From a virus: a DNA stretch of 39,716 bases. A program made the translations under genes and the position numbers. A model generated the notes under the pieces. It did not search any database, was not told the origin of the DNA, and was given only the letters and a program-made list of their open reading frames with translations. The DNA lies in IMG/VR virus record IMGVR_UViG_3300033146_001310, positions 1 through 39,716 of that record. One strand, 5' to 3'. This document shows positions 3,861 to 37,532 of this stretch, in pieces (positions within the stretch are counted from its first letter, which is position 1; each line of letters starts with the position of its first letter).

Positions 3861-3866
3861 TATCTT
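3840..3866 (+). promoter_or_regulatory. inverted repeat across the -10 box, possible operator
   Basis: AAGATAAT (3840-3847) and ATTATCTT (3859-3866) are perfect 8-base arms, 11 bases apart, spanning the spacer, the -10 and the predicted start of the promoter at 3832. Low complexity makes chance occurrence more likely than for the 11015 palindrome. Confidence 0.35.
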
Positions 3867-3877
3867 GGAGTAAATTA

Positions 3878-4021
3878 ATGAATGCTGATGATTTTAGATT
3901 CTTTTTGATTTTTATTATACTTTATGTTTTGTTCGGTGGAGATCCAGATTTGGTGGACTCGATCGGGATCTATCTACGTGGAGCTTCGGCTCCCCAACAA
4001 GTTATGGAGCTAACGAAATGA
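3878..4021 (+). CDS. small membrane protein, 47 residues
   Basis: First frame after the promoter at 3832; the ATG follows TTGGAG by seven bases. Residues 6-20 are strongly hydrophobic (FRFFLIFIILYVLF). Within the gene, GGAGC-TTCG-GCTCC (3980-3993) forms a hairpin with the very stable UUCG tetraloop. The stop overlaps the next start (ATGA). Promoter, ribosome site and coupling make this a credible gene of unknown function. Confidence 0.5.
   Translation: MNADDFRFFLIFIILYVLFGGDPDLVDSIGIYLRGASAPQQVMELTK
3980..3993 (+). other. UUCG-tetraloop hairpin inside a small gene
   Basis: GGAGC, loop TTCG, GCTCC with a C-G closing pair: the C(UUCG)G motif known from T4 mRNAs. No U-run follows. It could act as an mRNA stability element or pause site. 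Confidence 0.45.
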
Positions 4022-4098
4022 AAAATTTAACTTTTTGCATTTATCTTTTTATGGTTAATGCTCAGTTTATTCCTGCTATTTTGGATATGCTGTTTTGA
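4018..4098 (+). CDS. possible 26-residue hydrophobic peptide
   Basis: ATG at 4018 overlaps the preceding stop (ATGA). The peptide is hydrophobic throughout (FCIYLFMV ... FIPAILDMLF), with GGAGC upstream at about 4006-4010. It may be a translationally coupled membrane peptide. It has no recognisable family and is too short for certainty. Confidence 0.35.
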   Translation: MKNLTFCIYLFMVNAQFIPAILDMLF

Positions 4099-4166
4099 TC
4101 ACTAAACCATCTACAACATGTCGGCGAGATGAATCACCAACATCACCAACACTAGGAAATGAAAAC

Positions 4167-4511
4167 ATGAATGAAGCACTAGAACATGATCTAGAGACAC
4201 CAGAAGGTCGTTTCAATGAATTATTAGATAAATTAATTGGGGAAGGCTGGCCTCGGCGACGTGCTAAGCGATATTTAATGGCTCTTGCTAAGAGAGAGAC
4301 TTCGAAATTAATTCGTGAGGGACGTAGACGCCAAGCAAAACTTCGCGCAGAAGGAAAAATGTTAGACACGTCTGAAATTTCTGCTCAGTTAGACGCTGAA
4401 CTTGACGCTGAACTAGCTCAAGCTGGCCTAAGCAGAGATGATCTTGAGGATGCTCAGCAAACTCATGGAAATGTTTTGAAAGACTATGTACCACCAACTA
4501 ACGAATTTTAG
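4167..4511 (+). CDS. hypothetical protein, charged, helical
   Basis: 114 residues from the ATG at 4167, chosen because AGGAA sits eight bases upstream. The frame extends back to a TTG at 4095, but that stretch is Thr/Pro-rich and lacks a ribosome site. The first half is basic (WPRRRAKRYLMALAKRE, REGRRRQAKLRAEG) and the second half acidic (LDAELDAELAQAG). It may bind nucleic acid. Not recognised. Confidence 0.55.
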   Translation: MNEALEHDLETPEGRFNELLDKLIGEGWPRRRAKRYLMALAKRETSKLIREGRRRQAKLRAEGKMLDTSEISAQLDAELDAELAQAGLSRDDLEDAQQTHGNVLKDYVPPTNEF

Positions 4512-4522
4512 CAGAGGTCATT

Positions 4523-5470
4523 ATGAATTTCGAGCAATTTAGAATCTTGGAAATGAAGGTTGGTTCTCATCTCTACGGAACGAGCACTCCAGACTCTGAC
4601 GTTGATTTTTCTGGCGTTTTTGTTGCACCGAGAGAATTTTATCTTGGATTAGATAAAGTTGAAGAAGTAGATCTCTCTATTGTCTCGAAAAAAGAAAATG
4701 GTCGCAACAATAAAGACGCTGTAGATCGCAAACTTTACGAATTGCGTAAATTTATGAGTCTTGCTATGATGAATAATCCTAATATCATCGAGCAGTTATT
4801 CGTTGAAAGAGAACAATTAGTCTACAGTGACTTATTAGGAACCAAACTGCTTCTACATCGGCACATCTTTCCTTATAAAGGATGCTACGATAAATTCATC
4901 GGGTACGCTATTTCTCAGAAAAAGAAAATGATTATCAAGCGAGATAACATGTTTGATATCTTACAGGGAATTGAGTTCTTCGAGAAAGTCGATGATAAGC
5001 AGCACACGTATGTTGTTGAACTATCTTGGGAGTTTCTTAAGTTGAATAAACGCATTAGAGACACTGGACAGCATTACAACATCGGTGACATGAGTATCCA
5101 GAAAAACGACACTGTAAAACAAGCACTTCGTAAATTAGTAGATCGTTCTTCAAGATTCAGCAGTCGATTCGAAGATTTTATTTCTAAAACTGGTTATGAC
5201 ACTAAGTTTGCTAGTCATTTAATCAGACTTTTGATCGAGGGAAGAGATCTTTTAACACATGGAAAATTAGTTTTCCCTCTGAAAGATCGAGAACTAATCT
5301 TAGATATTAAATCGGGTAAATATAGCATTGAAGAAGTTTTAGAAATGGCACAGGATTTTGAAGATAGTATGAGGGGAGCCAAAGAAAAAAGTGAACTCCC
5401 TAGTAAACCAAACAAGAAAAAGATCGAAAAACTCTTAATTGAGATTATCGAAGAAAGTTGGAATCAATGA
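4523..5470 (+). CDS. predicted nucleotidyltransferase (DNA polymerase beta superfamily, COG3541-like)
   Basis: 315 residues. GSHLYGTSTPDSDVDFSGVF, starting at residue 14, is the nucleotidyltransferase signature: G-S, then the D-x-D pair (Asp26 and Asp28) that binds metal. A helical domain follows and the C-terminus is basic. The family transfers a nucleotide onto an RNA, protein or small molecule, and it is common in large phages without a known target. A pseudo-tRNA or ADP-ribose-type target cannot be inferred. The next gene overlaps its stop (ATGA). Confidence 0.8.
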   Translation: MNFEQFRILEMKVGSHLYGTSTPDSDVDFSGVFVAPREFYLGLDKVEEVDLSIVSKKENGRNNKDAVDRKLYELRKFMSLAMMNNPNIIEQLFVEREQLVYSDLLGTKLLLHRHIFPYKGCYDKFIGYAISQKKKMIIKRDNMFDILQGIEFFEKVDDKQHTYVVELSWEFLKLNKRIRDTGQHYNIGDMSIQKNDTVKQALRKLVDRSSRFSSRFEDFISKTGYDTKFASHLIRLLIEGRDLLTHGKLVFPLKDRELILDIKSGKYSIEEVLEMAQDFEDSMRGAKEKSELPSKPNKKKIEKLLIEIIEESWNQ

Positions 5471-5688
5471 AAGCACACTTAGTTTATAAATGTACAAGAT
5501 GTGGCGAGATTATCGTCATGACCGACACACTACTCGACGTCGATGAAATCGCGTGCGTGGAGAACATCAAAACGCATGTCTGTGATGTTGGAGTTTTTAT
5601 TAGCCCTGAGAAGCCTCCGAGTTACAAAGTAGTAGACCAAGTTGGTATCATTAAACTAGTCGGTTATAATGAGGTAGCAGATGCTTGA
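5467..5688 (+). CDS. small putative zinc-binding protein
   Basis: 73 residues. The ATG at 5467 overlaps the preceding stop; an in-frame TTG at 5458 is less likely. CTRC (residues 9-12) with later Cys30, His37 and Cys39 could form one zinc site, so a small zinc-ribbon-like fold is possible. No family is assigned. Overlaps the next gene by eight bases, indicating an operon with the nucleotidyltransferase. Confidence 0.5.
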   Translation: MKAHLVYKCTRCGEIIVMTDTLLDVDEIACVENIKTHVCDVGVFISPEKPPSYKVVDQVGIIKLVGYNEVADA

Positions 5689-5941
5689 AAATTTATTAGA
5701 AAGTTTAAGAATATGGCATATCATGGTTGGCGTGTTCGGTTTAATATTCTTGACCGTTATATGCACAGCCACAGTGTTTATTTTAACGCCAAAATATATG
5801 ACATATGTTGAAAGCGAAAGAATGAGGAGAGCTGTACTTTGGTCTGAGACACACGAAAAAATGGCTTACCAAATTGGACCGGTGCTTAAAACTTATCCAG
5901 ACTTCACGAAGTACATGGAAGTCAAAAATAACCAGAAATAA
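5681..5941 (+). CDS. single-span membrane protein
   Basis: 86 residues. A clear hydrophobic segment at about residues 13-37 precedes a charged tail facing one side of the membrane. GAGGT upstream serves the ATG at 5681. Not recognised. Last gene before the promoter at 5953. Confidence 0.55.
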   Translation: MLENLLESLRIWHIMVGVFGLIFLTVICTATVFILTPKYMTYVESERMRRAVLWSETHEKMAYQIGPVLKTYPDFTKYMEVKNNQK

Positions 5942-5952
5942 TAGCTTTTTTG

Positions 5953-5981
5953 TTTACATTTCTCACTGGATTTGATATAAT
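5953..5981 (+). promoter_or_regulatory. sigma70-type promoter upstream of the zinc-finger/OB gene
   Basis: TTTACA (5953-5958), 17 bases, TATAAT (5976-5981). The transcript would start near 5988 and carry AAAGGAG at 5998-6004 for the ATG at 6010. The -35 variant TTTACA is the same as in the DNA polymerase promoter at 11003. Confidence 0.8.
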
Positions 5982-5997
5982 GTATTAAATCAATCCA
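5967..5997 (+). promoter_or_regulatory. operator-like half-site pair TGGAT...ATCCA
   Basis: TGGAT (5967-5971) lies four bases before the -10 TATAAT, and ATCCA (5993-5997) lies 11 bases after it. The arms extend to TGGATTTGAT and ATCAATCCA with one unpaired base. The promoter at 11003 has the same half-sites at exactly the same distances, so the two promoters probably share a DNA-binding regulator. Confidence 0.6.
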
Positions 5998-6009
5998 AAG
6001 GAGTGTGTT

Positions 6010-7242
6010 ATGGAGAAAATTCTTGTCCCTCGTCAAAATATTTTTGCTCTCGAAGCTAAATTCAAAAAAGCTGCTAAAAAAGCTGCTAAGCTTGGGATGC
6101 CGATACCGCTGCTTCACATTTTTAAGGACGAGCAAGAAATCCATGAACTGGAAATAGAAACATTCGAGAAGGTCGAAAAACGTCGAGTTGTTTTTATTCC
6201 TGTAGTTTTCTTTGGCGAGATTCCAATTATCAAAGGTTGGAATCTCGCTGCTGCTGTTGAACATTCGAGGGTTCAAGAAAATGAAATCAACTACAATACC
6301 GTCCGATCTGTCCCTGGTTATGATGATCTTGTTGATCTTCGTACTGCTCCCCCCACTTGTGATCATTGTGGGCATAATCGTTTTCGGAAAAACACTTATC
6401 TCTTACATAATTCAGAAACTAATGAATTTTGCCGAGTTGGTTCTTCATGTGTTAAAGATTTTCTGGGAGATGTAGATCCTACCTACATCGTTAATTCTGC
6501 TAAACATCTTAAATTTCTTCAAACATTTCTTGACGAATTTGAGAGAATCCCTGGGGGATCTTACATCGAAGAATTCGATATTAAAGAAGTTTTAACTATA
6601 ACAAACGCTGTTATCCGAAAAACTGGTTGGTTAAGTAGAGGAAAAGTAATGGACACAGGTGGTTTTGCCACTGCTGACTACGTTTCCGAAATTTTAAACA
6701 CTTATCCTGCCAATTTTACTCACGAAATGAAAGATATCTTAAATTCTATCGATGATAACGATAAAAAAATGGCTGACGACTCAATTCTTTGGCTGAAATC
6801 TTTCGATCTTAACGATGCTTCTTTGAGCGATTACATTTATAACTGTTCATTGTGTGTTAAACGGGAATTAATAACCACTAAAGACCTCGGCATCGCTTGT
6901 TCTATCGTTGCTTCTTACAGAAATAAATTAGCAAAAGAGGCAACTCAAACAGCGGAACAGAAAGTTCAAAAAGATTCTACTTTCGTTGGGGAAATTAAAG
7001 AACGACTTCGCAACATGAAGGTCACATTCTTAAAAGAATGGACATTTGATAGTTCTTGGGGAGTTTGCACCATTCTTAAATTTATCAACGAAGATGGAAA
7101 CATTATTATCTGGAAAACTGGTTACGTTGAGCAATTCGAAGCTGGTGCTAAAATGATTATCACAGGCACCGTGAAAAAACATGAAAATTATCGGGACGTG
7201 AAACAAACTGTTCTTACTCGCTGTAAATTAGAGGAAGCTTAA
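6010..7242 (+). CDS. zinc-finger protein with C-terminal OB-like domain, function unknown
   Basis: 410 residues. The N-terminus is Lys/Ala-rich. A Cys cluster (Cys117-x2-Cys120, Cys141, Cys147, with His122) looks like a treble-clef or ribbon zinc site. The last ~90 residues contain ITGTVKKHENYRDVKQTVLTRC, a strand pattern typical of the end of an OB fold in phage DNA-metabolism proteins. Together these suggest a nucleic-acid-binding protein. Its own promoter shares an operator-like site with that of DNA polymerase, so it probably belongs to the replication programme. No enzymatic motif was seen. Confidence 0.6.
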   Translation: MEKILVPRQNIFALEAKFKKAAKKAAKLGMPIPLLHIFKDEQEIHELEIETFEKVEKRRVVFIPVVFFGEIPIIKGWNLAAAVEHSRVQENEINYNTVRSVPGYDDLVDLRTAPPTCDHCGHNRFRKNTYLLHNSETNEFCRVGSSCVKDFLGDVDPTYIVNSAKHLKFLQTFLDEFERIPGGSYIEEFDIKEVLTITNAVIRKTGWLSRGKVMDTGGFATADYVSEILNTYPANFTHEMKDILNSIDDNDKKMADDSILWLKSFDLNDASLSDYIYNCSLCVKRELITTKDLGIACSIVASYRNKLAKEATQTAEQKVQKDSTFVGEIKERLRNMKVTFLKEWTFDSSWGVCTILKFINEDGNIIIWKTGYVEQFEAGAKMIITGTVKKHENYRDVKQTVLTRCKLEEA

Positions 7243-8351: not shown

Positions 8352-9323
8352 ATGTCTATAAAAGATTCTTTATGGGTAGAACGTTATCGTCCACAAACTA
8401 TCGCCGAAATCATCGCTCCAACCTCAACCCAAACTCTATTAAAAAATATTGTCGCTGATGGTCAATTACCGAACATCATGTTTTATGGCACTGCCGGCCT
8501 CGGGAAAACGTCTACTGCTCATGCATTAGTTAATGACATTGGTGCTGAGAAGCTTTATATTAACGGATCGTTAGAAACATCTGTTGATGTAATTCGTGAT
8601 AGGGTCATTCAATTTGCTATGACTCATTCAGCAGCCTCATTTCTTTCTGAAGATGAGACCAACATTCCAAAAATTGTCATAATTGACGAGTGTGAACGAC
8701 TTTCACCAAACGCTCAAGACTCGTTGAAAGTGGTTCTTGAAGAAGCTTCTTCGAATTGTAGATTCATCTTTTGTTCTAACAACTTACAGAAGATTATTTC
8801 ACCTCTTCAATCCCGATGTAAATTAATCTCGTTTAACTATGGCACAGATCAGTCAAAAGATATTATGCTTCAGTACTTTAAACGAATCATAGAAATACTA
8901 ACGAAAGAAGGATTCACTGTAGGAAAAGCTGAAAAAGGAATTTTGGCTGAATTCGTTCAGCAATTTTTCCCAGATTTCAGAAAAATGCTTAATGAACTAC
9001 AGGGTTATCTGATCGAACATTCTGAGATTAAAATGGACCTTCTTAGAGTCGGTGATTCTTCTATGACACTGGATTTGATTGAGTTGATTAAAGCAAAGCA
9101 ATTCAAGAAAATGTCAGAAGTGTGCACGGAAATTGACCCTTCGTCTTTCTTCACAACTTTTTATGCTGAAATCAAAAAGTTCGTGGTGGCAGAATCTTTA
9201 CCTGACATCGTGTTTATTTTACGTGATGGAATGCATACTCATGCCCTCGCCATTGACCAAGAAATTAATCTTATCGCAGTCTGCACAGAATTAATGCAAG
9301 CACTCAACGGGAAGTGGAAATAG
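8352..9323 (+). CDS. 44: clamp loader ATPase large subunit, T4 gp44-like
   Basis: 323 residues (T4 gp44 has 319). AAA+ protein: the N-terminal WVERYRPQTIAEI is the RFC box, Walker A is GTAGLGKTS (46-54), Walker B is IVIIDEC (108-114), sensor 1 is CSNN (141-144) and the SRC arginine-finger motif is at 154-156. A C-terminal collar domain follows. With gp62 it forms the ATP-driven pentamer that opens and loads the gp45 ring. The ribosome site is CTGGAG before the ATG. The stop is one base before the gp62 gene. Confidence 0.95.
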   Translation: MSIKDSLWVERYRPQTIAEIIAPTSTQTLLKNIVADGQLPNIMFYGTAGLGKTSTAHALVNDIGAEKLYINGSLETSVDVIRDRVIQFAMTHSAASFLSEDETNIPKIVIIDECERLSPNAQDSLKVVLEEASSNCRFIFCSNNLQKIISPLQSRCKLISFNYGTDQSKDIMLQYFKRIIEILTKEGFTVGKAEKGILAEFVQQFFPDFRKMLNELQGYLIEHSEIKMDLLRVGDSSMTLDLIELIKAKQFKKMSEVCTEIDPSSFFTTFYAEIKKFVVAESLPDIVFILRDGMHTHALAIDQEINLIAVCTELMQALNGKWK

Positions 9324-18015: not shown

Positions 18016-18237
18016 ATGGCAAAAGTAACTACAGATGATTCTTCAGGCGTATCGATCGCAACATTTGAGATTGAGACTCCAGAAGGCTACACACAATTTA
18101 GAAAAGGCTTGGATCGAGGTGAAACTCATTGGTCTCAGCACCCAGAAACAAATGAGCTTCTTAAATATCGTTCTGAAAACAACCAAAATTCTCGAATTTA
18201 CGTGAAATACGGCGAATTCTCAAGACAGGTGAAATAA
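18016..18237 (+). CDS. small protein, paralogue of the gene at 17271
   Basis: 73 residues, AAGGAAA upstream. Shares FEI...Y..F.KG.....HW..H with the protein at 17271, at roughly 30 percent identity by eye. It is followed two bases later by another head-targeting-motif protein, repeating the arrangement of its paralogue. No known family. Confidence 0.55.
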   Translation: MAKVTTDDSSGVSIATFEIETPEGYTQFRKGLDRGETHWSQHPETNELLKYRSENNQNSRIYVKYGEFSRQVK

Positions 18238-18238
18238 T

Positions 18239-18436
18239 ATGTCTAACTTTAAAAAAATGCTAGAGGAATCTGTTAAGAAAATTAACAGTGGGAAAGTTTT
18301 AAAAACAGTAGTTGATGGTCAAAAACTTTCTATTGCGGTCGGTCAACAAAAAGATGTCATTAGCATTTCTTTGGGGAAAGAATATGTTGTGCTTACCGAC
18401 AAAGACGCAAAAGATTTCATGGATTTATTAAAATAA
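18239..18436 (+). CDS. small protein with capsid-targeting-like N-terminus
   Basis: 65 residues. N-terminus MSNFKKMLEES fits M-x-x-F-x-x-x-L-x-E-S. The mature part is a small alternating beta/alpha domain (KTVVDGQKLSIAVG, VISISLGKEYVVLTDKDA). Last member of the cluster before the baseplate-type genes. Not recognised. Confidence 0.6.
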   Translation: MSNFKKMLEESVKKINSGKVLKTVVDGQKLSIAVGQQKDVISISLGKEYVVLTDKDAKDFMDLLK

Positions 18437-27598: not shown

Positions 27599-29677
27599 AT
27601 GGCTTTTTCACTATCCCCATCAGTTGACGTTCGCGAATTTGATCTAAGTATGTCAGTTCCAAATCTTCCTTCTGCGAAGACTGGAATGGTAATCAGATCG
27701 AATGTAGGTGAGGCGTTAGCTATTCAATCAATCACAAGTGAAAGAGATCTTATTAATGCTTTTGGAAAACCTAATGCGTATAACTATCAAGACTGGTTTA
27801 ACGCATGGAATTTCCTTCAGTACGCAAGTTCTCTCTATGTTGTTCGTGGTATGGACAAAGATGTTGAAAACGCAGGCATGGAACTGGTTACAGAAAATGG
27901 TTTCGTAAATGTAGAACAACTCAGTCAAAATAAAATGTACAATCCAGACCAAGCTCAACTAACACTCGAACAAGAAATTATTCCAGAAGGACTACAATTT
28001 TGGAATAAGGACGTTTCCCCTAACCAGAATTACGCTGTTGCTGTTTGTATGAGTCCTGCTAATTGGGATCTACCATTTTCAGCTGATGGTCTAAATTCTT
28101 TAGTTTCTGTAGCATCTTTTGATTCTACAGCCGACGTTGGTACAGGTTCAAGCGCGATCCAATCTGATTATAACACTTTAATCGTTGGTGATGCATTTGA
28201 ATTCCAAGGCGCAACTTACACAGTATCCGACGTAACTGGTGCTGTTGTAACTGTTACTCCTGAAATCACAGAAAACGGTGATGGTTCTACTGCTTATGTT
28301 GGTATTGTTACTGGAACTACAGCACTCACGCCAGCTGTTGAAGCTTACCGGAATGCTAAATTCTCATCTGATCTTGTGAACGCTGATGGTTCATTTGTTT
28401 CTTTCTCATCTTTCTTTGAGTATAAACCAGATTTCGCTAAAGGCGAGTTTGTTGTTGTAGTTTTTGATCTTGATGACGACGGTCTTTTCGATAACATCGA
28501 AGAATTCACTGTTGGTAAAACTGAAACAGCACGGGACGTTGAGGGTAGAAACATTTTCATTGAAGAAGTTTTCTTCAAGAGTTCTAAGCTTCTATTCGCA
28601 CGTTGGAATCAAGAATACGCTGCTAACATTGACACAGCATTTTCTCCATTCGTAGAATTAAGTGGAACTGCTGTCGACGTTGAAGCTGTTGAGCCTGAGT
28701 GGCTTTATCCTCGTAAAAAGGAATTTGCTGCTGACGGTACTACATTCATTAAATGGATTTTCGATCCATTGGGATATGCTACTGCTGATATCATGAACGG
28801 ATTTGAACTATTTGAAGATCCAGAAGCTTTTGATATTAACCTGCTTATTTCTCATCAAATCGATATTAACCGTGCATCAACAATCTGCTCTACTCGCAAA
28901 GATTGTTTAGCAATCGTTGCTCCATATGATTATCCTTCTTTAGTTGGAAAATCTGCTTCTGATGCTACTGAATGGATGACTGACAACTTCGGTTCTCAAA
29001 AATATCCTATGCCTTCAACATATTACACATTCAATTCATATTCTGCCGTTTATGGCAACATGAAATATCAATATGATAAATTCAATGATGTAAATCGTTG
29101 GTTGTGTATCGCCGGTGATATCGCTGGTTTGGCTGCTCAAACTGATGCCAATCGCGATCCATGGTGGGCATTTGCTGGTCTTGAGCGTGGTAAAATTCGC
29201 AACGCGATCAAACCTGCTTTTAATCCTAACAAGCAAAATCGCGATGATCTTTACATTAATAGTATCAATCCAATCATGTCTGTGCCTGGCGAAGGCGTAA
29301 TGGTTGTTTGGGGTCAGAAAACTGCGACAGCTAGACCGTCAGCGTTTGACCGTGTTAATGTACGTCGTTTACTTATCACTATTGAGAAAGCTATCTCAAC
29401 TGTTTGTAAGTACGTGATTTTTGAATTTAATGATGAATTCACACGCGCTCGTTTACGCGGGATGATTGAACCATTCCTTCGTGATGTTAAGGGTCGTCGT
29501 GGAATTTATGATTTCATGGTGGTTGTTGATGGTTCCAACAACACAGCAGAAGTTATCGATAATAACGCTCTTGTAGTCGACATTTATATTAAACCTACCA
29601 AGGTTGCTGAATTTATCCAGCTTAATGTTAATGTTACAAGAACTGATGCTAACTTCGAAGAATTAATCGCACGATAA
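27599..29677 (+). CDS. 18: contractile tail sheath protein, T4 gp18-like
   Basis: 692 residues (T4 gp18 has 659). The N-terminal SPSVDVREFDLSMSVPNLPSAKTGMVI and the C-terminal segment FDRVNVRRLLITIEKAIS ... EPFLRDVKGRRGIYDFMVVVD are the sheath-family signatures. The middle carries a Gly/Val/Thr-rich surface domain. Contracting sheath subunits drive the tube through the cell envelope. A dedicated late promoter and clean ribosome site agree with high expression. Confidence 0.97.
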   Translation: MAFSLSPSVDVREFDLSMSVPNLPSAKTGMVIRSNVGEALAIQSITSERDLINAFGKPNAYNYQDWFNAWNFLQYASSLYVVRGMDKDVENAGMELVTENGFVNVEQLSQNKMYNPDQAQLTLEQEIIPEGLQFWNKDVSPNQNYAVAVCMSPANWDLPFSADGLNSLVSVASFDSTADVGTGSSAIQSDYNTLIVGDAFEFQGATYTVSDVTGAVVTVTPEITENGDGSTAYVGIVTGTTALTPAVEAYRNAKFSSDLVNADGSFVSFSSFFEYKPDFAKGEFVVVVFDLDDDGLFDNIEEFTVGKTETARDVEGRNIFIEEVFFKSSKLLFARWNQEYAANIDTAFSPFVELSGTAVDVEAVEPEWLYPRKKEFAADGTTFIKWIFDPLGYATADIMNGFELFEDPEAFDINLLISHQIDINRASTICSTRKDCLAIVAPYDYPSLVGKSASDATEWMTDNFGSQKYPMPSTYYTFNSYSAVYGNMKYQYDKFNDVNRWLCIAGDIAGLAAQTDANRDPWWAFAGLERGKIRNAIKPAFNPNKQNRDDLYINSINPIMSVPGEGVMVVWGQKTATARPSAFDRVNVRRLLITIEKAISTVCKYVIFEFNDEFTRARLRGMIEPFLRDVKGRRGIYDFMVVVDGSNNTAEVIDNNALVVDIYIKPTKVAEFIQLNVNVTRTDANFEELIAR

Positions 29678-29689
29678 GGAGAGTAAAAA

Positions 29690-30199
29690 ATGCCAATCAC
29701 ATTATCAGATTTTAAAAGTAACGTGAAAGATGTTGCTCGTCCTAATCGTTTCATGTTTAAGTTCAATAGTTTACGTGCAGGTGGTGATCCTGTTAAAATG
29801 ACGTATCTCTGTAAGTCTTCACAGATTCCAGGGAAAAACATCGGGGAAGTAATTTTAAACTGGCAAGGAATGCAGAATAAAATTGCTGGTGATCCGACTT
29901 TTGATGATCTAACTCTAACTTTTTTGAATGACTATGACCAATCTGGCCGTGACACATTTGAGAAGTGGATGAAGAAAATTGACGATCAGACTACTAACGT
30001 AAGAACTGAACAGGACGAATATAAAGAGGATTGTACTCTTGAGCATCTTGGGCGTGGTGGAGAAGTTATCGCTAGTTTCAAGATGATTGGAGTCTGGCCG
30101 AAAACTATTGATCCTGTTGATCTTGACCAAGAAACAATGGACACACCATCCGAGTTTAACGTAACATTAAGCATGGATTATTGGGAACGCGATAGCTAA
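29690..30199 (+). CDS. 19: tail tube protein, T4 gp19-like
   Basis: 169 residues (T4 gp19 has 163). DVARPNRFMFKFNSL, CKSSQIPGKNIGEVILNWQGMQNKIAGDPTFDDLTLTFLNDYD and the C-terminal SEFNVTLSMDYW are characteristic of the T4 tail tube family. Hexamers stack to form the tube inside the sheath. AAGGAGAG stands before the ATG. A strong terminator follows, isolating the sheath-tube unit from downstream genes. Confidence 0.97.
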   Translation: MPITLSDFKSNVKDVARPNRFMFKFNSLRAGGDPVKMTYLCKSSQIPGKNIGEVILNWQGMQNKIAGDPTFDDLTLTFLNDYDQSGRDTFEKWMKKIDDQTTNVRTEQDEYKEDCTLEHLGRGGEVIASFKMIGVWPKTIDPVDLDQETMDTPSEFNVTLSMDYWERDS

Positions 30200-30226: not shown

Positions 30227-30255
30227 AAAAGGGAGATCTTCGGGTCTCCCTTTTT
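30227..30255 (+). terminator. strong intrinsic terminator after the tail tube gene
   Basis: A 12-bp stem, AAAAGGGAGATC / GGTCTCCCTTTT (one G-U pair), closes a TTCG tetraloop at 30239-30242. It is preceded by A's and followed by a T-run (30251-30255). This is the clearest Rho-independent terminator of the window. It ends the 18-19 transcript just before a new late promoter. Confidence 0.9.
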
Positions 30256-30263
30256 GTGTTTCT

Positions 30264-30271
30264 TATAAATA
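30264..30271 (+). promoter_or_regulatory. T4-type late promoter TATAAATA
   Basis: Exact box between the terminator and the gene at 30293. The predicted start (about 30277) coincides with AAGGAG, so the leader would be only about 16 bases. It makes the accessory cassette 30293-33320 a late-expressed unit. Confidence 0.65.
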
Positions 30272-30292
30272 TTATTAAGGAGATGAGTGTTT

Positions 30293-31339
30293 ATGTTTAA
30301 GAAGATTATTATTTTAGTATTTTTGATATGTTTCTCATCTCAGGCGCTGTCGATTTCCAAATCAGCGACTTATTCTAAGTCGCTGAAAAAATCTTTAGTG
30401 TTGATTTCTAATAAGTGCTATGATTATATGAAATACACTAATTTCGATAATTCTTTACACGAAGCAATATCCTCTGTTAAAAATAAGAATTTTAAAATCA
30501 GGAAATTCTACTTAAATTGTCATAACGAGTGTTCTCAAGAAGAATTAATCGGTAGATTTAAAATCATCTGGAAGAAAGTGCTTGAAATTGATCCAGACTA
30601 TTTAGTCATTTCAGATAATATTCTTTGGAACAATTTCACTAACGAGATTCAGGAGTTTAGTGAACGACCAAACAAATTAACAGGAGTTTTTAATCTAATA
30701 AGTAATGAAAACATCTTCAATGATTTCCAAAACTTAGCCCCAAATATTTTATTTTCAACACATGTAATAAATATTACCCCAGTTGTTAATTACTTCGCGA
30801 AGAACGGGGGAGATTTTTCAGATTATTATATTTTAAGAGACGCATGTCCATATAATTTAGATATCGCTGTAAGCATTCGAAAGCAACTCAAGCGAATGAA
30901 TCAACAAACTAAAGTCAATGTGATAGAAGTTTATTCCGGTCGACACCTGAAAAACATAGTAACAGAATTACAGATAGAAAAGCAAGGTGTGATAATTCCA
31001 ATTATGGATAGCTTAATGGGAAATAACGGAAAACATATTAATATAAATAATATTTTAAGTATTATAAAATCTCATAATAGAAAACATGTCGAGGTCTCTT
31101 TAACATATGATGCCTCAAAATTTTTAGGTATTTCTTATGCTCATAATGCGAATATTTCCACTAGAAGAATTAAGTTAGAGAATAATTTAATATTTTTCTT
31201 AGAAGATTTCGTTGGGGACGAAAAGAAATATTTAAATGAGAAATCATTATTAATTGTTAATAGACAAGAGGTCGGCAGAGTTTTTAATGGCACTAAGCTT
31301 TTACGCGTCACGAACCACATAGTAGATATTTTTAGGTGA
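30293..31339 (+). CDS. secreted protein with periplasmic-binding-like (ABC_sub_bind-type) pattern
   Basis: 348 residues from the ATG at 30293; a GTG at 30287 is also in frame. A basic-then-hydrophobic signal peptide (FKKIIILVFLICFSSQALS) precedes an alpha-beta protein with the two-lobe rhythm of periplasmic binding proteins. Near the end, LLIVNRQEVGRVF...LLRVTNHIVD resembles the terminal motif of PF04392-type substrate-binding proteins, and DPDYLVISDN resembles a first-lobe strand. The fold call is by pattern only. A phage-encoded exported protein of this kind is unusual. It heads a cassette with two membrane proteins. Confidence 0.5.
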   Translation: MFKKIIILVFLICFSSQALSISKSATYSKSLKKSLVLISNKCYDYMKYTNFDNSLHEAISSVKNKNFKIRKFYLNCHNECSQEELIGRFKIIWKKVLEIDPDYLVISDNILWNNFTNEIQEFSERPNKLTGVFNLISNENIFNDFQNLAPNILFSTHVINITPVVNYFAKNGGDFSDYYILRDACPYNLDIAVSIRKQLKRMNQQTKVNVIEVYSGRHLKNIVTELQIEKQGVIIPIMDSLMGNNGKHININNILSIIKSHNRKHVEVSLTYDASKFLGISYAHNANISTRRIKLENNLIFFLEDFVGDEKKYLNEKSLLIVNRQEVGRVFNGTKLLRVTNHIVDIFR

Positions 31340-31343
31340 AAAA

Positions 31344-31715
31344 ATGTTAACAACGATTTATAATTTTTTAAATATTTTCTATGAAAAATTCGCTAATCAT
31401 ATAGATTATGTGATTTCAGACGAGGGGAAAATAGTTAAGGTGATAAAGAACAGAGGTTTAGGTTCTTCTGCTTTTATCTATTTCTTCATTAGTCTTGTGA
31501 TTCTAATTACATTATTTTCTGGTCCGCTTATTCTTATAAACGAATATGATTCTTATTATACTGATAAGATTTTTCTGGACAAGTATGAAGTACAGCAAAT
31601 ATGTTACGAAAATAGTAGTTGGATAGAATGTTTTAGTTTTTCGGATGATAAACTACTAAAACTTTATTTAGATTCTAATAATCCAATAAAAACACTTTAT
31701 ATCAAAGAGGACTAA
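31344..31715 (+). CDS. single-span membrane protein
   Basis: 123 residues. The N-terminal ~38 residues are cytoplasmic-type, followed by a span at about 40-66 (FIYFFISLVILITLFSGPLILI) and an acidic, Tyr-rich C-terminal domain with two Cys (QICYENSSWIECF) that would lie in the periplasm and could be disulfide-bonded. Starts four bases after the secreted protein's stop. Not recognised. A physical partner of its neighbours is a reasonable guess. Confidence 0.5.
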   Translation: MLTTIYNFLNIFYEKFANHIDYVISDEGKIVKVIKNRGLGSSAFIYFFISLVILITLFSGPLILINEYDSYYTDKIFLDKYEVQQICYENSSWIECFSFSDDKLLKLYLDSNNPIKTLYIKED

Positions 31716-31722
31716 GCTCTAT

Positions 31723-32385
31723 ATGTTCAATTTTCTTTTAAATATTTCTACCTCTACATATTTCGTGTTTGGGGCCTCACTTGTTCTAACTATCTTCATA
31801 GTGTTAATTGTTTTGCCGCTAATTAACCGCATGAAAAAAATGGATGATGTGCTTTACGAAAAAATGAATCTCGTGCCAAATAAAGAAGATTATAAAATCT
31901 TGCTTGAAGAGGTTCGAGATCACCATGACGCACAAGCTAATTTTAATAACGAGTATTCTGAAATAAAAGATCTCATTAATGAATTAAACACAGAGTTAGA
32001 AAAAATAAATGTAAAAGATTTTAGTAATATTCTTTTAGACACATGCGATTCAAAAATTGGGGGGTTAATGGACGACGTATCTGTGTTAGACGAAAGAATT
32101 ACTGACTTCGCTAATTATATGCATGAAAACGAGAAACAAACTTCTGTACAGATCAAAAACTTAGTTGCTGCACGTATTGACGCTGTGATTTTTCTAATAA
32201 AATTCATAGAAAAATTAAAAGAGTCGAATGTTATAGAATATATAGACACTGATCCACTAGAAAATATACAAAGAAAACTCCAAAAAGGTTTGGATAGTAT
32301 TTCTGGTGGTGGGAACTATACCGTCTTTAATTCCAACAGTAAATCTGGTAGAGTTAATAGATTTACAAATGATTTTAAATACTAA
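31723..32385 (+). CDS. membrane-anchored coiled-coil protein
   Basis: 220 residues. An N-terminal span at about residues 10-34 (TYFVFGASLVLTIFIVLIVLPLI) is followed by long charged helices with heptad-like spacing (about 36-175), then a Ser/Asn/Gly-rich end. The layout resembles RmuC-like or receptor-like signalling helices more than a channel. No family is assigned. Third gene of the cassette, seven bases downstream of the previous stop. Confidence 0.5.
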   Translation: MFNFLLNISTSTYFVFGASLVLTIFIVLIVLPLINRMKKMDDVLYEKMNLVPNKEDYKILLEEVRDHHDAQANFNNEYSEIKDLINELNTELEKINVKDFSNILLDTCDSKIGGLMDDVSVLDERITDFANYMHENEKQTSVQIKNLVAARIDAVIFLIKFIEKLKESNVIEYIDTDPLENIQRKLQKGLDSISGGGNYTVFNSNSKSGRVNRFTNDFKY

Positions 32386-32396
32386 AGGTACTAAAA

Positions 32397-33320
32397 ATGA
32401 AAACTTTTCCGATTGATTTAATGACTTTAACCAATCATATACACACACAATATGATAAGATTTTACACAACAACTCATTTAGAAATAGAATGTGCGTATG
32501 TAGAAGAAAAATATTCGAGCAATTCACTTTCACAGTTGAGAAATTGATAATTAAAATTGGTTCTAGAACATTAAAATACACTGAAGATTTTAACTTCGAA
32601 TTGAGCACAAATATTTTAGAACTAAAAGATTGGTTCAATAAGGAGGTTTATGAATATCTCTTTAATGATCACGAAGTATCTAACAAAATGGTGCTAACAT
32701 TCAAAAAAATGCAAGAATACCAAGACATTAAATTCTTCGACATACTGGAAACGAAATATGAGAATATTTTAATTTCTCTACGAAATCATGAAATAGAGAA
32801 CGTTAACTCTGAGCTGAATAATCTCTTCGAAGAAATTAGAGCGTGGTATGAATTATTTCTTTATATGATTCTTTCGACACAGTTTAACTGTCAGTCTTTA
32901 AAAGATTCATTCTTGGAGGATAATAATATTCGCCCCGACTTTGGATGTGGAATGAATGATCCAACAAAATGGTGCATTCATCACAATGATTGCGAAAAAT
33001 GCGACGTCCATGAAACTGTGCTTGAGCATGGCGAGTCAATCAATATCATAATGGTAAATGATTTTATCGATGACATGACTTGGCTAGAAAAATTAACAGA
33101 TATAGTAAAAAATTATCATCACAACCCAGATGACATAACACTTTACTTAGATTATAGAATGTATGATCAGCTAATTCAGTGTAAATTATCTCATCATCAT
33201 TACGATAAAATTTTAGAAGCTCAAAGCTGCTTCAAAAATATTAAAATAAAAAATCATGAAGGAATAAATTTTAATGGTTATTTTGAAAAACTAAAGACCA
33301 TGCTTACTGCGAACATGTAA
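32397..33320 (+). CDS. hypothetical protein with Cys/His cluster
   Basis: 307 residues, no signal peptide or span. A mostly helical N-terminal two-thirds precedes a cluster CGMNDPTKWCIHHNDCEKC (from about residue 183) that could bind zinc or iron, then an alpha-beta region (INIIMVNDFIDDM, DDITLYLDYRMYDQL). Weak ribosome site (AAGGTAC). Not recognised. Fourth member of the non-core cassette and probably its cytoplasmic or virion component. Confidence 0.5.
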   Translation: MKTFPIDLMTLTNHIHTQYDKILHNNSFRNRMCVCRRKIFEQFTFTVEKLIIKIGSRTLKYTEDFNFELSTNILELKDWFNKEVYEYLFNDHEVSNKMVLTFKKMQEYQDIKFFDILETKYENILISLRNHEIENVNSELNNLFEEIRAWYELFLYMILSTQFNCQSLKDSFLEDNNIRPDFGCGMNDPTKWCIHHNDCEKCDVHETVLEHGESINIIMVNDFIDDMTWLEKLTDIVKNYHHNPDDITLYLDYRMYDQLIQCKLSHHHYDKILEAQSCFKNIKIKNHEGINFNGYFEKLKTMLTANM

Positions 33321-33332
33321 ATAAGGAACAAA

Positions 33333-33818
33333 ATGAGTGAACTAGAATGCAATAATACGGATTTTTTAAAATCTGCGCAATTTAAATTAGTCTTAGAACT
33401 TCAAGAAAAGACGGTTGAATTCTTCGTGCAAGAATGTAATCTTCCTGGCTGGCAAATTGGAGAAATGCAGATCTCGCACATGTCACAAATTCAGCAACGC
33501 CCTGGTGATAATATAACTTGGAATCAGTTAACAGCTACTATACTGTGCGATGAAGAGCTAAAAGCGTTTATTGAATGTCACAAATACTGTTTTAGAATTA
33601 AAAATCCCGACACTGGAGAACTTGGTGGACCGGACGAAACTTTTGATGCTAAATTAGTAATTCTAACTAATAAAAATAATTATCAGCATGTAGTAACTTT
33701 CTATGATGCATGGATACAGAATGTTGGTGACATGCCTTTCACAAATATATCTACTGAAGACGAACCAATCACATTCACGATTGATCTTCAGTATGATTAT
33801 TACACGATAGGAAAATAA
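33333..33818 (+). CDS. tail-tube-fold protein (gp19 paralogue or tail completion protein)
   Basis: 161 residues, similar in size to gp19. QECNLPGWQIGEMQISHMSQI, RPGDNITWNQLTATILCDEELKAFIECHKYC and the C-terminal TFTIDLQYDYY follow the same strand pattern as the T4 tube family (compare CKSSQIPG... and FNVTLSMDYW in gp19). It could be the tube initiator at the baseplate, as T4 gp54 and gp48 are, or a tail terminator. The exact role is not determined. Confidence 0.65.
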   Translation: MSELECNNTDFLKSAQFKLVLELQEKTVEFFVQECNLPGWQIGEMQISHMSQIQQRPGDNITWNQLTATILCDEELKAFIECHKYCFRIKNPDTGELGGPDETFDAKLVILTNKNNYQHVVTFYDAWIQNVGDMPFTNISTEDEPITFTIDLQYDYYTIGK

Positions 33819-33841: not shown

Positions 33842-34321
33842 ATGAGCTATTATCAAATACAAGATTTTAGAAAATATTTAACACACCCAGAAAAATATAC
33901 TAACGTTTCTGGACAACCATGCACGCTAAGGAGCGGTTGGGAAATTAGATTTGCTACTTGGCTTGATACTAATTCTGGAGTACTAAAGTGGTCATCTGAG
34001 GAGATTGTTATAAAATATGATTTCATGAATCCAAAAACTGGTAAGTTAAATAAGCATAGATATTTCACAGACTTTTGGATGCAGATAAGAGATAAACAAG
34101 GAGACATAAAAGAGTACATCATCGAAATAAAACCGTTTAAAGAAACAATGCCTCCCCAAAAACCCAAGCGAGAAACTAAAGCTTATAAAAATAGAATAGT
34201 AACTTATCTCAAGAACCAAGCAAAATGGAATGCAGCTCGTGAATTTTGCGCTAATCAGAAAAGACTTGGTAAAGAAATAGAATTTGTGGTTCTAACTGAA
34301 AAAGATTTGCCAATTACTTAA
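33842..34321 (+). CDS. 4: head completion protein, T4 gp4-like, with TnsA-type nuclease residues
   Basis: 159 residues. RSGWEIRFATWLDTNSGVLKWSSEEIVIKYDF, HRYFTDFWMQIRD and EYIIEIKPFKETMPPQKP follow the gp4/TnsA N-terminal nuclease pattern, with Glu34, Asp77 and Glu95-x-Lys97 as likely active-site residues. C-terminal AKWNAAREFCANQKRLGKEIEFVVLTEKDL is also typical of the family. In T4, gp4 acts late in head completion, joining filled heads to tails, biochemical role unsettled. The weak ribosome site is AAGAGAATAAAATA. Confidence 0.8.
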   Translation: MSYYQIQDFRKYLTHPEKYTNVSGQPCTLRSGWEIRFATWLDTNSGVLKWSSEEIVIKYDFMNPKTGKLNKHRYFTDFWMQIRDKQGDIKEYIIEIKPFKETMPPQKPKRETKAYKNRIVTYLKNQAKWNAAREFCANQKRLGKEIEFVVLTEKDLPIT

Positions 34322-34322
34322 T

Positions 34323-34330
34323 TATAAATA
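34323..34330 (+). promoter_or_regulatory. T4-type late promoter TATAAATA
   Basis: Exact box one base after the gp4-like stop. The predicted start near 34336 gives a 23-base leader for the gene at 34359, with TTAAGG as ribosome site. It drives the conserved small gene and the portal. Confidence 0.75.
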
Positions 34331-34358: not shown

Positions 34359-34808
34359 ATGGCAGGTAAATTCAAAGAGAACGCAATATATTTTTTCAGA
34401 TACAAAGATCCAGCTACTAAAGCTAGGATGGAAGTATGGGACTCTGCTCCCTTAATAATTCCATTAGACATTACTAGAAAATCTCTGTTAGCTGTGAATC
34501 TACATTGGATCCCAAGTAGTCACCGCCAAGAATTTGTTAATTTCTTAATGGAATATTTCAAGCAAGGAAGACTCGGAAACAAAAGAATAAAACGCACACG
34601 ACTTTATTACAATTTCGTGAAATCAGGTAAAATTAGATGGGCTATGGTCGCTATAAGACGCTATCACATCTCTAGAATCACTGGAATGAAAGAAATAAAA
34701 CCGGAACTTTGGCCTAAGATGCTGAAAACTAGATCAATAGGACCAAAATTCAAATACACTAACTGGAAAAAGAATCTTACTCGTTCTTTTAGAAAACCAG
34801 TGAAATAA
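34359..34808 (+). CDS. conserved protein of the T4 superfamily head-tail region, function unknown
   Basis: 149 residues. YFFRYKDPATKARMEVWDSAPLIIPLD, LLAVNLHWIPSSHRQEFVNFL and FVKSGKIRWAMVAIRRYHIS resemble a protein often found near the portal gene in marine T4-like phages, where the pattern is FxYxPKTK...YWDxFPLxIPL...GLNLHYLPP (from memory). The C-terminus is strongly basic. It may be a DNA- or head-associated structural protein. No activity can be assigned. Confidence 0.55.
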   Translation: MAGKFKENAIYFFRYKDPATKARMEVWDSAPLIIPLDITRKSLLAVNLHWIPSSHRQEFVNFLMEYFKQGRLGNKRIKRTRLYYNFVKSGKIRWAMVAIRRYHISRITGMKEIKPELWPKMLKTRSIGPKFKYTNWKKNLTRSFRKPVK

Positions 34809-34819
34809 GGATTTAACAC

Positions 34820-36652
34820 ATGTCAAAATTTTTAAATGGTTTAGCAGAAGAATTAAATCGCCCGATTTATGGAAAAAAAGAGGCAAGTTTAAACAATAAA
34901 AATAGTTTATCTACTTCTTCTAATGAGGGTGATGTCGAGGCGGATTATATTTCATATGATCCTTTTGCTTCTTACACTAATTCTTCTCTTTCAGAACATA
35001 CGAGTTTTTCTAATCGTAAAGAAATCATCAGTAAATGGCGCAAAGCTATTTGGAATCCTGAGGTTGACGAAGCCGTCACAGAGATTCTTACTGAGGCGAT
35101 CGTTTTTGACGAGCAAGAAGATGTTCTTTCTATAAACATCGACGACGTAGATCTACCTAAGAAAATTAAAAACAAAATTATCGAATCTTTTGAAAATATC
35201 CTTTATATGCTCGATTTCAACCGCATGGGAGAAGATCTTTTCAAAAAATGGTACGTTGATGGTCAATTAAATCTTGAAGTAGTGTATGATAATAAAAAAA
35301 TTCAAGACGGCATCCAAAAATTGATCGTACTTTCCCCATTCGATATCTGGAAGATCAGAAACGAAAAAACTCATGAAATTAAGTACATCATTAAAGACGA
35401 AAAACCCGATAACAATTTTGCTACTAACATAAAGAAAGCTGAACGGATTTTTGAGCTTGAACAGATAACTCAGATTGTTTCTGGTTCTTGGTCCTCTGAT
35501 GGAAAAACGCCCATGTCGTTGCTTCAGAAGGCGATTAAACCAATTAATCAGTTGAACCTTTTGGAAGATGCTGTGGTCATCTGGCATATCACTAGGTCCC
35601 CAGAAAAGCGTGTTTTCTATATAGATACAGGTAACCTTCCGAAATCAAAAGCAGAGGAATATATTAAGCGTCTTATTGCTAAGTATCGTCAGAAAAAAGT
35701 CTATAACGCTGAAAACGGTACCTTGGATAATCGTTCTAAATCTATCTCAATTCTTGAAGATTTTTGGTTACCACGAAATGCAGCTGGTCGGGGAACAGAG
35801 ATTGATACTCTATCTGCTCAGTCTTCTGGCATGGAAGAAATGACTCATGTTGAATATTTCGTAGATAAAATTTACAAAGCTTTAACTATTCCACGTTCAA
35901 GAAGAAGTCAAGAGTCAACGATTCAGATTAATAACTCTATTGATGTTGAAAAAGATGAACTGAAATTCTTTAAGTTTATTCTTAAATTGCGTCGTAGATT
36001 TAATAACTTATTCATCGACCTACTAAAGAAAGATTTATTAGCTAAAAAGGTTATAAAACTAGAGCACTGGGAAACGATCCAAGAAAAAATTAAATTTAAT
36101 TACGCGAATAACAATCCTTACTCAGACATCAAGAAAATGCAACTGATGGAAATGAGAATGGGAATTGCTTCTAATGCTCTGGAAATGGTCGAAAATGATT
36201 TTCTTTCCAAGCAGTGGGTTAAAGAAGAAATTTTAAATCAAACCCAAGAAGAGATCGACGAGATTAAAAAGCAGCGAGATGAAGAAAAGAAAGACGGCGA
36301 TGATGTTGGTGGGACTAGTGATGATGATGAGAATGGAATGGGATTTGGCCAAGAGCCAGTAGCCCCAGCAAATCGTGGGGAAGTTCCAACCCAACCGCCC
36401 GTCCAACCACAAGCACAGCAAGGTATTGAGAAAGAAAATCAGCCGGTTTATTTAGCGGCTGATATTCAAGAACAACTATCTCAATTAATCAAGAAAGAAA
36501 TTACTTCTGCTATTGATGAATATAAGAAGAATGAAAATGAAAGAAAGAAAATTGATTTCATCAATACACTAAAAGAAGGCGATATCATAAGTAATGGAAA
36601 AGAAAAATTAATTCTTTTTAACGGCAAACTTATTCCATACGAAGAAGATTAA
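34820..36652 (+). CDS. 20: portal protein, T4 gp20-like, with C-terminal extension
   Basis: 610 residues against 524 in T4. ISYDPFASYTN, RKAIWNPEVDEAVTEILTEAIVFDE, WYVDGQLNLEVVYD, GTEIDTLSAQSSGMEEMTHVEYF and KALTIPRSRR are portal signatures. The dodecamer forms the DNA entry channel and docks terminase gp17 and the neck. From about residue 497 there is an extra region: an Asp/Gly/Gln/Pro-rich linker, then a helical segment and a small beta end (GDIISNGKEKLILFNGKLIP). Weak ribosome site (AAGGATT). Confidence 0.95.
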   Translation: MSKFLNGLAEELNRPIYGKKEASLNNKNSLSTSSNEGDVEADYISYDPFASYTNSSLSEHTSFSNRKEIISKWRKAIWNPEVDEAVTEILTEAIVFDEQEDVLSINIDDVDLPKKIKNKIIESFENILYMLDFNRMGEDLFKKWYVDGQLNLEVVYDNKKIQDGIQKLIVLSPFDIWKIRNEKTHEIKYIIKDEKPDNNFATNIKKAERIFELEQITQIVSGSWSSDGKTPMSLLQKAIKPINQLNLLEDAVVIWHITRSPEKRVFYIDTGNLPKSKAEEYIKRLIAKYRQKKVYNAENGTLDNRSKSISILEDFWLPRNAAGRGTEIDTLSAQSSGMEEMTHVEYFVDKIYKALTIPRSRRSQESTIQINNSIDVEKDELKFFKFILKLRRRFNNLFIDLLKKDLLAKKVIKLEHWETIQEKIKFNYANNNPYSDIKKMQLMEMRMGIASNALEMVENDFLSKQWVKEEILNQTQEEIDEIKKQRDEEKKDGDDVGGTSDDDENGMGFGQEPVAPANRGEVPTQPPVQPQAQQGIEKENQPVYLAADIQEQLSQLIKKEITSAIDEYKKNENERKKIDFINTLKEGDIISNGKEKLILFNGKLIPYEED

Positions 36653-36653
36653 A

Positions 36654-37532
36654 ATGAGTAAATCTTTCAAACAACTCATGAGAGAAACTGAGTTTAAAGA
36701 CATTAAACTCGAAGAATTTAACTTAATTAATTCTGATGCGCCGAAAAATGTTGATCTTAATAATGTTGAAGACTTCAGTGTTATAATCAGAAAAGAAGAA
36801 TCATTACCTCAAATTAATATTGTGGAGGGAGAGAAGGGTGCCGATGGCGCTGTAGGACCTGCTGGTCCAAAAGGCGAAGAAGGAAAAATCGGACCTGCTG
36901 GTATCCCAGGTCCTCCGGGAGTAAGAGGACCAAAGGGCGAAAAAGGCGAAAAAGGGGACACTGGCGAACGTGGGGAAAAAGGTGAGGTTGGTGTAACGGG
37001 TGAAAAAGGCGAGCAAGGTCCTATTGGAGCTACCGGATTTGCTGGACCACAAGGTAAGCATGGAGTACGGGGATTACAGGGACCAGAAGGACCAGAAGGT
37101 AAAATTGGTCCTCAAGGAGAGGTTGGACCCGATGGACTTAGAGGTTTAACTGGTCCTCAAGGTGAAACTGGTGCAGTTGGTCCTCAAGGTGAAAAAGGTG
37201 CAGTTGGTCCTCAAGGTGAAAAAGGTGAAATTGGTTTACCAGGGATCCCCGGAGAAACCGGTAGACGAGGACCAGTCGGTCTTCAAGGTTTTCCTGGGGA
37301 ACCGGGGAAAGTTGGTAAGCGTGGGACAAAAGGATTAAAAGGCGATACAGGACCAAAAGGCGATACTGGTAAGGTCGGAGCTTCTGGTGCTCCTGGGCCT
37401 GTTGGTGCCGTTGGACCTGCTGGTAAAGATGGTAAAGATGGAACGTATCCTGAGCATCAAGTTCAGACGAATGGCGTTCGATGGAAAAACCCTGATGGAA
37501 ATTGGGGCGAATGGATGGCGGGAGTGGCATAG
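36654..37532 (+). CDS. collagen-like protein with ~68 uninterrupted Gly-X-Y repeats
   Basis: 292 residues. Residues 59 to about 263 are a continuous run of about 68 Gly-X-Y triplets rich in GEK, GPQ and GPA, which should form a triple helix. The C-terminal cap (VRWKNPDGNWGEWMAGVA) is typical of phage fiber ends. The N-terminus SKSFKQLMRETEF fits the head-targeting motif of cluster 15540-18436 shifted by one residue (Phe5, Met9, Glu11). Starts one base after the portal stop, so it may be a head decoration or fiber. Confidence 0.8.
   Translation: MSKSFKQLMRETEFKDIKLEEFNLINSDAPKNVDLNNVEDFSVIIRKEESLPQINIVEGEKGADGAVGPAGPKGEEGKIGPAGIPGPPGVRGPKGEKGEKGDTGERGEKGEVGVTGEKGEQGPIGATGFAGPQGKHGVRGLQGPEGPEGKIGPQGEVGPDGLRGLTGPQGETGAVGPQGEKGAVGPQGEKGEIGLPGIPGETGRRGPVGLQGFPGEPGKVGKRGTKGLKGDTGPKGDTGKVGASGAPGPVGAVGPAGKDGKDGTYPEHQVQTNGVRWKNPDGNWGEWMAGVA

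Follow-up and report, generated by a model that had tools for sequence, protein, structure and literature searches.

The window, by which is meant the whole stretch of DNA that was analysed, is a 39.7 kb virus record (IMG/VR IMGVR_UViG_3300033146_001310, 39,716 nt) and a fragment of a T4-like phage. By its portal protein the closest named phage is Melnitz, with 38% identity at best. Four genes, here called A to D, are found in the order sheath, gp19 tube, terminator, late promoter TATAAATA, A, B, C, D, gp3-like gene, gp4, gp2 and portal gp20. The features of the locus are:

27599-29677: sheath
29690-30199: gp19 tail tube
30227..30254, + strand: intrinsic terminator after gp19, a 12-pair stem with a T-run
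30264..30271, + strand: T4-type late promoter TATAAATA, 29 nt upstream of the gene A ATG
30293..31339, + strand: gene A, 348 aa, predicted exported type-I periplasmic-binding-fold protein (hydrophobic N-terminus, fold model, Foldseek, VIA)
30293-30352, + strand: predicted signal peptide of A, cut site placed by rule
31344..31715, + strand: gene B, 123 aa, one span (predicted, residues 47-65), N-terminus inside, Cys-bearing outer domain
31723..32385, + strand: gene C, 220 aa, N-terminal span (predicted, residues 16-34) and a mostly helical inner region (alignment)
32397..33320, + strand: gene D, 307 aa, soluble Cys/His protein, a helical bundle with a small alpha/beta part
33333..33818, + strand: gp3-like tail completion gene (PHROG 45; tblastn to tail completion / head-proximal tip proteins)
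33842-34321: gp4
34323..34330, + strand: next late promoter TATAAATA, before gp2
34359-34808: gp2
34820-36652: portal gp20

The four reading frames are present where the initial annotation had put them. It had placed them between the tail tube and portal genes; the cassette does follow gp19, but gp3-, gp4- and gp2-like genes separate D from the portal. The ATG at 30293 is the most likely start of A (SD at 30277-30282), with the GTG at 30287 as an alternative start. The gp3-like product is the second tube-fold protein at the locus. The idea that a missing T4 neck gene is hidden in D was rejected: matches to the Ad2 adaptor, Hc2 head closure, sheath stabiliser and terminase proteins are found elsewhere in the window, and gp3 comes after D. 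Directly 3' of the portal lies a gene of 292 aa (36654-37532) with a GC content of 0.48 (0.60 at codon positions 1+2); most of the window has about 0.37.

A terminator and a late promoter had been described ahead of A, and both were found, the terminator being a strong one. The promoter motif NATAAATA is located 24-42 nt upstream of the A ATG in all eight copies of the cassette, and a terminator precedes A in each of the seven copies that have a full spacer. Shuffling showed that a NATAAATA-type motif occurs by chance in one spacer with a frequency of 3-13%, and it is therefore the recurrence of the motif across copies that counts. The conserved late signals support the description of the cassette as a late expression unit. 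The TATAAATA before gp2 is conserved in the relatives L001, L002, L003, L006, L007 and L012, and a NATAAATA belonging to the gp3-like gene itself is absent in the conserved set. Since the next conserved TATAAATA is found only before gp2, A-D are probably transcribed together with gp3 and gp4. The gp3-like gene is a neighbour that is read with the cassette and lies outside the mobile block.

The stretch had been noted as more AT-rich than its flanks. The difference is real, with a GC content of 0.28-0.30 in A-D and about 0.35-0.40 in the flanks, but it is limited to codon positions 1+2, GC3 being 0.23-0.32 in A-D and 0.21-0.36 in the flanks. The same pattern, with GC3 like that of the flanks and low GC at positions 1+2, is found in L001 and L006. 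AT-richness is thus a property of the protein make-up and not of foreign DNA, and a recent foreign insertion, as judged by AT content, was rejected on the basis of equal GC3 in three genomes.

For the four proteins, signal peptides and topology were assigned with simple rules rather than with a trained predictor. The N-terminus of A is hydrophobic and has, by rule of thumb, an A-L-S-type cut site. An AlphaFold model of A (pLDDT 72, pTM 0.70) has a predicted two-lobe alpha/beta type-I periplasmic-binding fold. Compared with solved structures, the model gives a best Foldseek E of 1.2e-7 with a probability of 1.00; the best structural matches are the TrpX-type proteins 3lft, 3lkv and 6hni, at 8% identity (for 3lft, VIA Z 17.6 over 272 residues, rmsd 4.6), and LuxP 1jx6 has a VIA Z of 16.5. 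The fold is nearest to that of amino-acid and nucleoside binders. With both the signal and the type-I fold predicted, the description of A as a signal-peptide protein with a binding-protein pattern holds. At the sequence level, A reaches the cut-off of no family in Pfam or NCBIfam, the ABC_sub_bind type included, and neither A nor D gave a credible match in a sequence search of solved structures. Four of the 16 conserved polar residues of A are near strand C-ends, taken as the pocket loops, versus 25% expected, as counted from secondary structure only and not from coordinates. By this count no enrichment at the pocket is seen, so that small-molecule sensing draws its support from the fold. The single PADLOC match is to PDC-M03A, with 18 bits, in one of seven A proteins.

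The topology rules assign a single span to B, a single span to C and none to D, as had been proposed. B consists of a short inside part, a span and an outer domain. Its Cys 87 and Cys 96 are invariant in seven copies, and the pair is also found in L017, a far relative, and in L026, an unrelated phage; the span and the invariant pair agree with the proposed one-span protein with a Cys-containing outer domain. The helical region of C is placed inside by charge in most copies, though not in all, and its matches are only weak ones of coiled-coil type. D is 55-68% identical across copies and contains the motifs CxC and CxH...CxxH, the second of which is missing in L017; the motifs and the lack of a predicted span are those of a soluble Cys/His protein, as it had been called. 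The model of D (pLDDT 80.5, pTM 0.83) has no match among solved structures above Z 7.9, a level usual for helical bundles. Its best matches among viral models are uncharacterised proteins, e.g. A0A8S5UH10 of Myoviridae sp. ctshb19 (probability 0.99 but E 0.037), and are a lead only.

Pfam, PHROGs, NCBIfam and PADLOC yielded no useful match for A-D and none to a defence system or lysis family. No kinase, response or other signalling domain was detected in B, C or D with Pfam and NCBIfam, and there are no permease or ATPase genes among A-D or their neighbours. A tblastn search of 50,697 phage records with A, D and the L017 and L026 versions of D returned no homologue in named phages, and D was not found in bacterial and archaeal species genomes.

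The window's relatives come from metagenomes, most of them from a single one, and are fragmentary. In seven further IMG/VR contigs, which have about 70% portal identity or related flanks, A-B-C-D occur at this place and in this order wherever the contig includes the stretch (the cassette is at the locus in L001, L002, L003, L006, L007 and L009/L012; L004 starts inside C). Identity to the window in these relatives is 28-36% for A, 28-39% for B, 28-35% for C and 55-65% for D, and 66-75% for gp3, 63-73% for gp4 and 64-74% for gp2. The far relatives L017 and L018, whose portal identity is 48-49%, carry the cassette between gp19 and gp3, with starts and stops overlapping. Their counterpart of A has 343-348 aa and is related to A (hhalign 95%, E 5e-8), that of B is a 91-aa one-span protein with the B-type Cys pair, and that of D is 25% identical (E 5e-28); the counterpart of C, a 215-aa one-span helical protein, is matched by position and type only. 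In L020 (portal 53%) A-D are undetectable between the same genes, and in Melnitz the portal follows directly after gp19, without the cassette. The presence of A-D in the distant L017 and L018, together with their absence from L020 and Melnitz, indicates that the module is old but accessory.

The place of the cassette in L020 is occupied by two other membrane-protein genes (1640-2850; one of 123 aa with a C-terminal span, the other of 279 aa with many spans), and the gp19-gp3 spot may therefore be a general site for envelope genes. The same contig has a GIY-YIG homing endonuclease-like gene between gp4 and gp2 (3862-4731). In L003, one TAA stop lies within the portal gene (4500-6314). L017 has a stretch of about 500 bases (8540-9040), between gp3 and gp4, that is free of ORFs, has a base make-up unlike its surroundings and looks like a structured RNA or an intron, but that gives no match in Rfam.

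An off-locus copy of the block is found in L026 (contig G001, 24.4 kb), which is called an unrelated phage on the basis of its 24 kb. Here, the genes on either side of A-D encode 117 and 144 aa, and the block has a terminator of its own and GATAAATA before A. Besides A-D, L026 and the window have in common one nucleotidyltransferase, which is 25% identical; the same gene is 59-60% identical between the window and its own relatives. A of L026 is 48-49% identical to A of the window, compared to 28-36% for the window's own relatives. The respective values are 46% and 28-35% for C, and 67-68% and 55-65% for D, while B shows no clear difference (38-40% and 28-39%). The cassette tree groups the window with L026 (support 100/99) and the backbone tree, built from gp3, gp4 and gp2, groups it with L003 (support 100/100). 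In the AU test, the window-L003 grouping is rejected for the cassette with p 9e-80, and the L003-L006-L007 grouping of the cassette tree is rejected for the backbone with p 8e-5. The closeness of A, C and D of L026 to the window and the AU-tested conflict between the two trees show that A-D were exchanged as a block, in one direction or the other, between unrelated phages and against their own structural neighbours.

A-D are an old, mobile, late envelope module and not obligatory virion hardware. They are non-core genes, as the initial annotation had it, since neither L020 nor Melnitz has them between the corresponding genes and they are off-locus in the unrelated L026; they are thus not virion parts conserved in all relatives, and A has its predicted signal and fold. 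That the cassette is 'inserted' is correct insofar as the phylogeny and L026 show mobility, but all near relatives that include the stretch carry it at the locus and composition provides no evidence of insertion.

Many genes of L026 (12-12489) start with a common motif, MRxxEfITE / MRIxEILTE, which may mark a set of injected proteins and which we take to resemble the capsid-targeting leaders of T4 internal proteins. L026 also contains a permuted two-piece tmRNA gene (18060-18408; Rfam beta_tmRNA and tmRNA_permuted; ARAGORN tag ANYGFALSA), and Melnitz has a two-piece tmRNA as well (PMC9004378).

All four genes are under purifying selection, with dN/dS of 0.02-0.25 in two close pairs, values that are rough as synonymous sites are near saturation. 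These values, and the occurrence of the four ORFs in the same order in eight contigs, show that A-D are more than a chance arrangement. The fastest-evolving proteins are the outer ones, A and B, and the constraint on D is similar to that on the structural genes. Such a pattern suits a module whose outer face varies and whose inner part stays constant, and falls short of proving a relay; fast-changing outer proteins are also common among non-sensory envelope proteins.

The explanation put forward here, tentatively and with less than even confidence in it as a whole, is that A-D are an accessory, exchanged envelope module of T4-like phages in which A-B-C-D form a relay from the periplasm to the cytoplasm that controls late infection. 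A would be exported and would recognise something periplasmic, be it a small molecule, a host factor or a component of an incoming phage. It would then dock on the Cys-stabilised outer domain of B. Inside the cell the result would be passed on or put into effect by C, which has one span and an inner part that is helical, and by D, which is soluble and conserved. As output, late-infection control, i.e. lysis timing or the success of a second phage, would be most likely; lysis timing or the blocking of rival viruses is a reasonable guess for the role of the cassette. Preservation of the order A-B-C-D even in L017, at 17-26% identity, argues that the four genes act together. The mobile block comprises exactly the four genes, the terminator and the late promoter, and fast change in the outer A and B beside a constant D is what a sensing face that varies and an output that does not would produce. 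The conflict between the trees and the binding-protein fold of A also speak for the explanation, and the predicted compartments parallel those of T4 RI, T and RIII (PMC11413866). Against the explanation, sequence searches tie A-D to no family known for signalling, lysis or exclusion, and the conserved polar residues of A are not enriched in the pocket region. The mobility, the conservation of the late signals, the purifying selection and the predicted fold of A are results of the tools used; the compartments are predictions, and the relay and its output are inferred. LuxP-LuxQ is similar in having a type-I binding fold beside a membrane partner, and differs in that B, C and D of the cassette have no kinase or response domain, the docking is presumed and the cassette is phage-borne.

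The T4 proteins RI, T and RIII are, respectively, an exported periplasmic protein, a one-span protein with an inside N-terminus and an outer domain, and a soluble inner protein (PMC11413866). A narrow lysis control of this type, with B holin-like or regulating a holin, A a periplasmic regulator and C and D inner regulators, is unlikely. The phage belongs to the same broad group, the promoter is late, and the cassette has the same three compartments (by prediction only): B has the topology of the holin T, with a short inside part, one span and an outer domain, A sits where RI does and D where RIII does (PMC11413866). However, searches of Pfam and PHROGs match none of A-D to RI, T or RIII, and B to no holin; A is a large binding-fold protein of about 350 aa, unlike the small RI; there is a fourth gene, C; all four genes share a single late unit; and no Phage_lysozyme family gene was found in the records, although these are fragments. 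Superinfection exclusion, in which A or B would act in the periplasm against a second phage, blocking its DNA entry or its tail lysozyme, with support from C and D inside, is likewise improbable. The predicted envelope location, shared with the small T4 proteins Imm and Sp, and the fast change of the outer proteins are consistent with it, and the passage of the cassette between unrelated phages from the same samples suits an anti-competitor weapon. T4 sp (spackle) and exclusion genes like it are early genes (PMC7677548), whereas the cassette has late signals; nor is there a match to an exclusion or PADLOC family beyond the one weak match in a single member.

Manipulation of host uptake by the cassette is weakly supported, as the unit has no permease or ATPase and the polar residues of A are not concentrated at pocket loops. 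That A serves a host transporter as its substrate-binding protein is quite improbable: its fold is closest to amino-acid and nucleoside binders, and its best structural matches are TrpX-type ABC substrate-binding proteins, but A has no sequence match to bacterial binding-protein families, and B, C and D, which have no transporter role in sight, always travel with it. Among T4-like phages, cyanophages also carry a periplasmic binding protein, PstS; it is, however, a host-derived phosphate binder with no linked B-D genes, and its fold is type-II, unlike the type-I fold of A. The precedent that it offers is that PstS is thought to serve the host transporter as a substrate-binding protein (PMC2984593, PMC3429862). 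It is very improbable that A-D are virion or assembly components of the gp19-gp3-gp4-gp2-gp20 block. Such a role would agree with retention of the locus over large divergence (L017, portal 49%), with the promoter-free D-gp3 junction and the overlapping start and stop codons in L017, and with a D nearly as conserved as gp2 and gp4. It is contradicted by the predicted signal peptide and spans, the off-locus copy in an unrelated phage without those neighbours, the presence of the block without A-D in L020 and Melnitz, and the conflict of the cassette tree with the neighbouring structural genes.

Virulent phages are known to sense superinfection, T4 lysis inhibition being an example, and host signals are read by some phages. 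Literature and family searches revealed no phage system in which a binding-fold protein has dedicated membrane and cytoplasmic partners. A-D may constitute a horizontally exchanged trans-envelope sensor built on a binding-fold receptor, with which T4-like phages would read the periplasm late and adjust lysis or exclude rivals; this proposal, for which there is no sequence-recognisable precedent, is doubtful at present. The cassette is a self-contained, transferable block of four genes with its own late promoter, and as a unit it is directly clonable and testable. If it is true that the cassette controls lysis or exclusion, such control would move between unrelated phages as a module.
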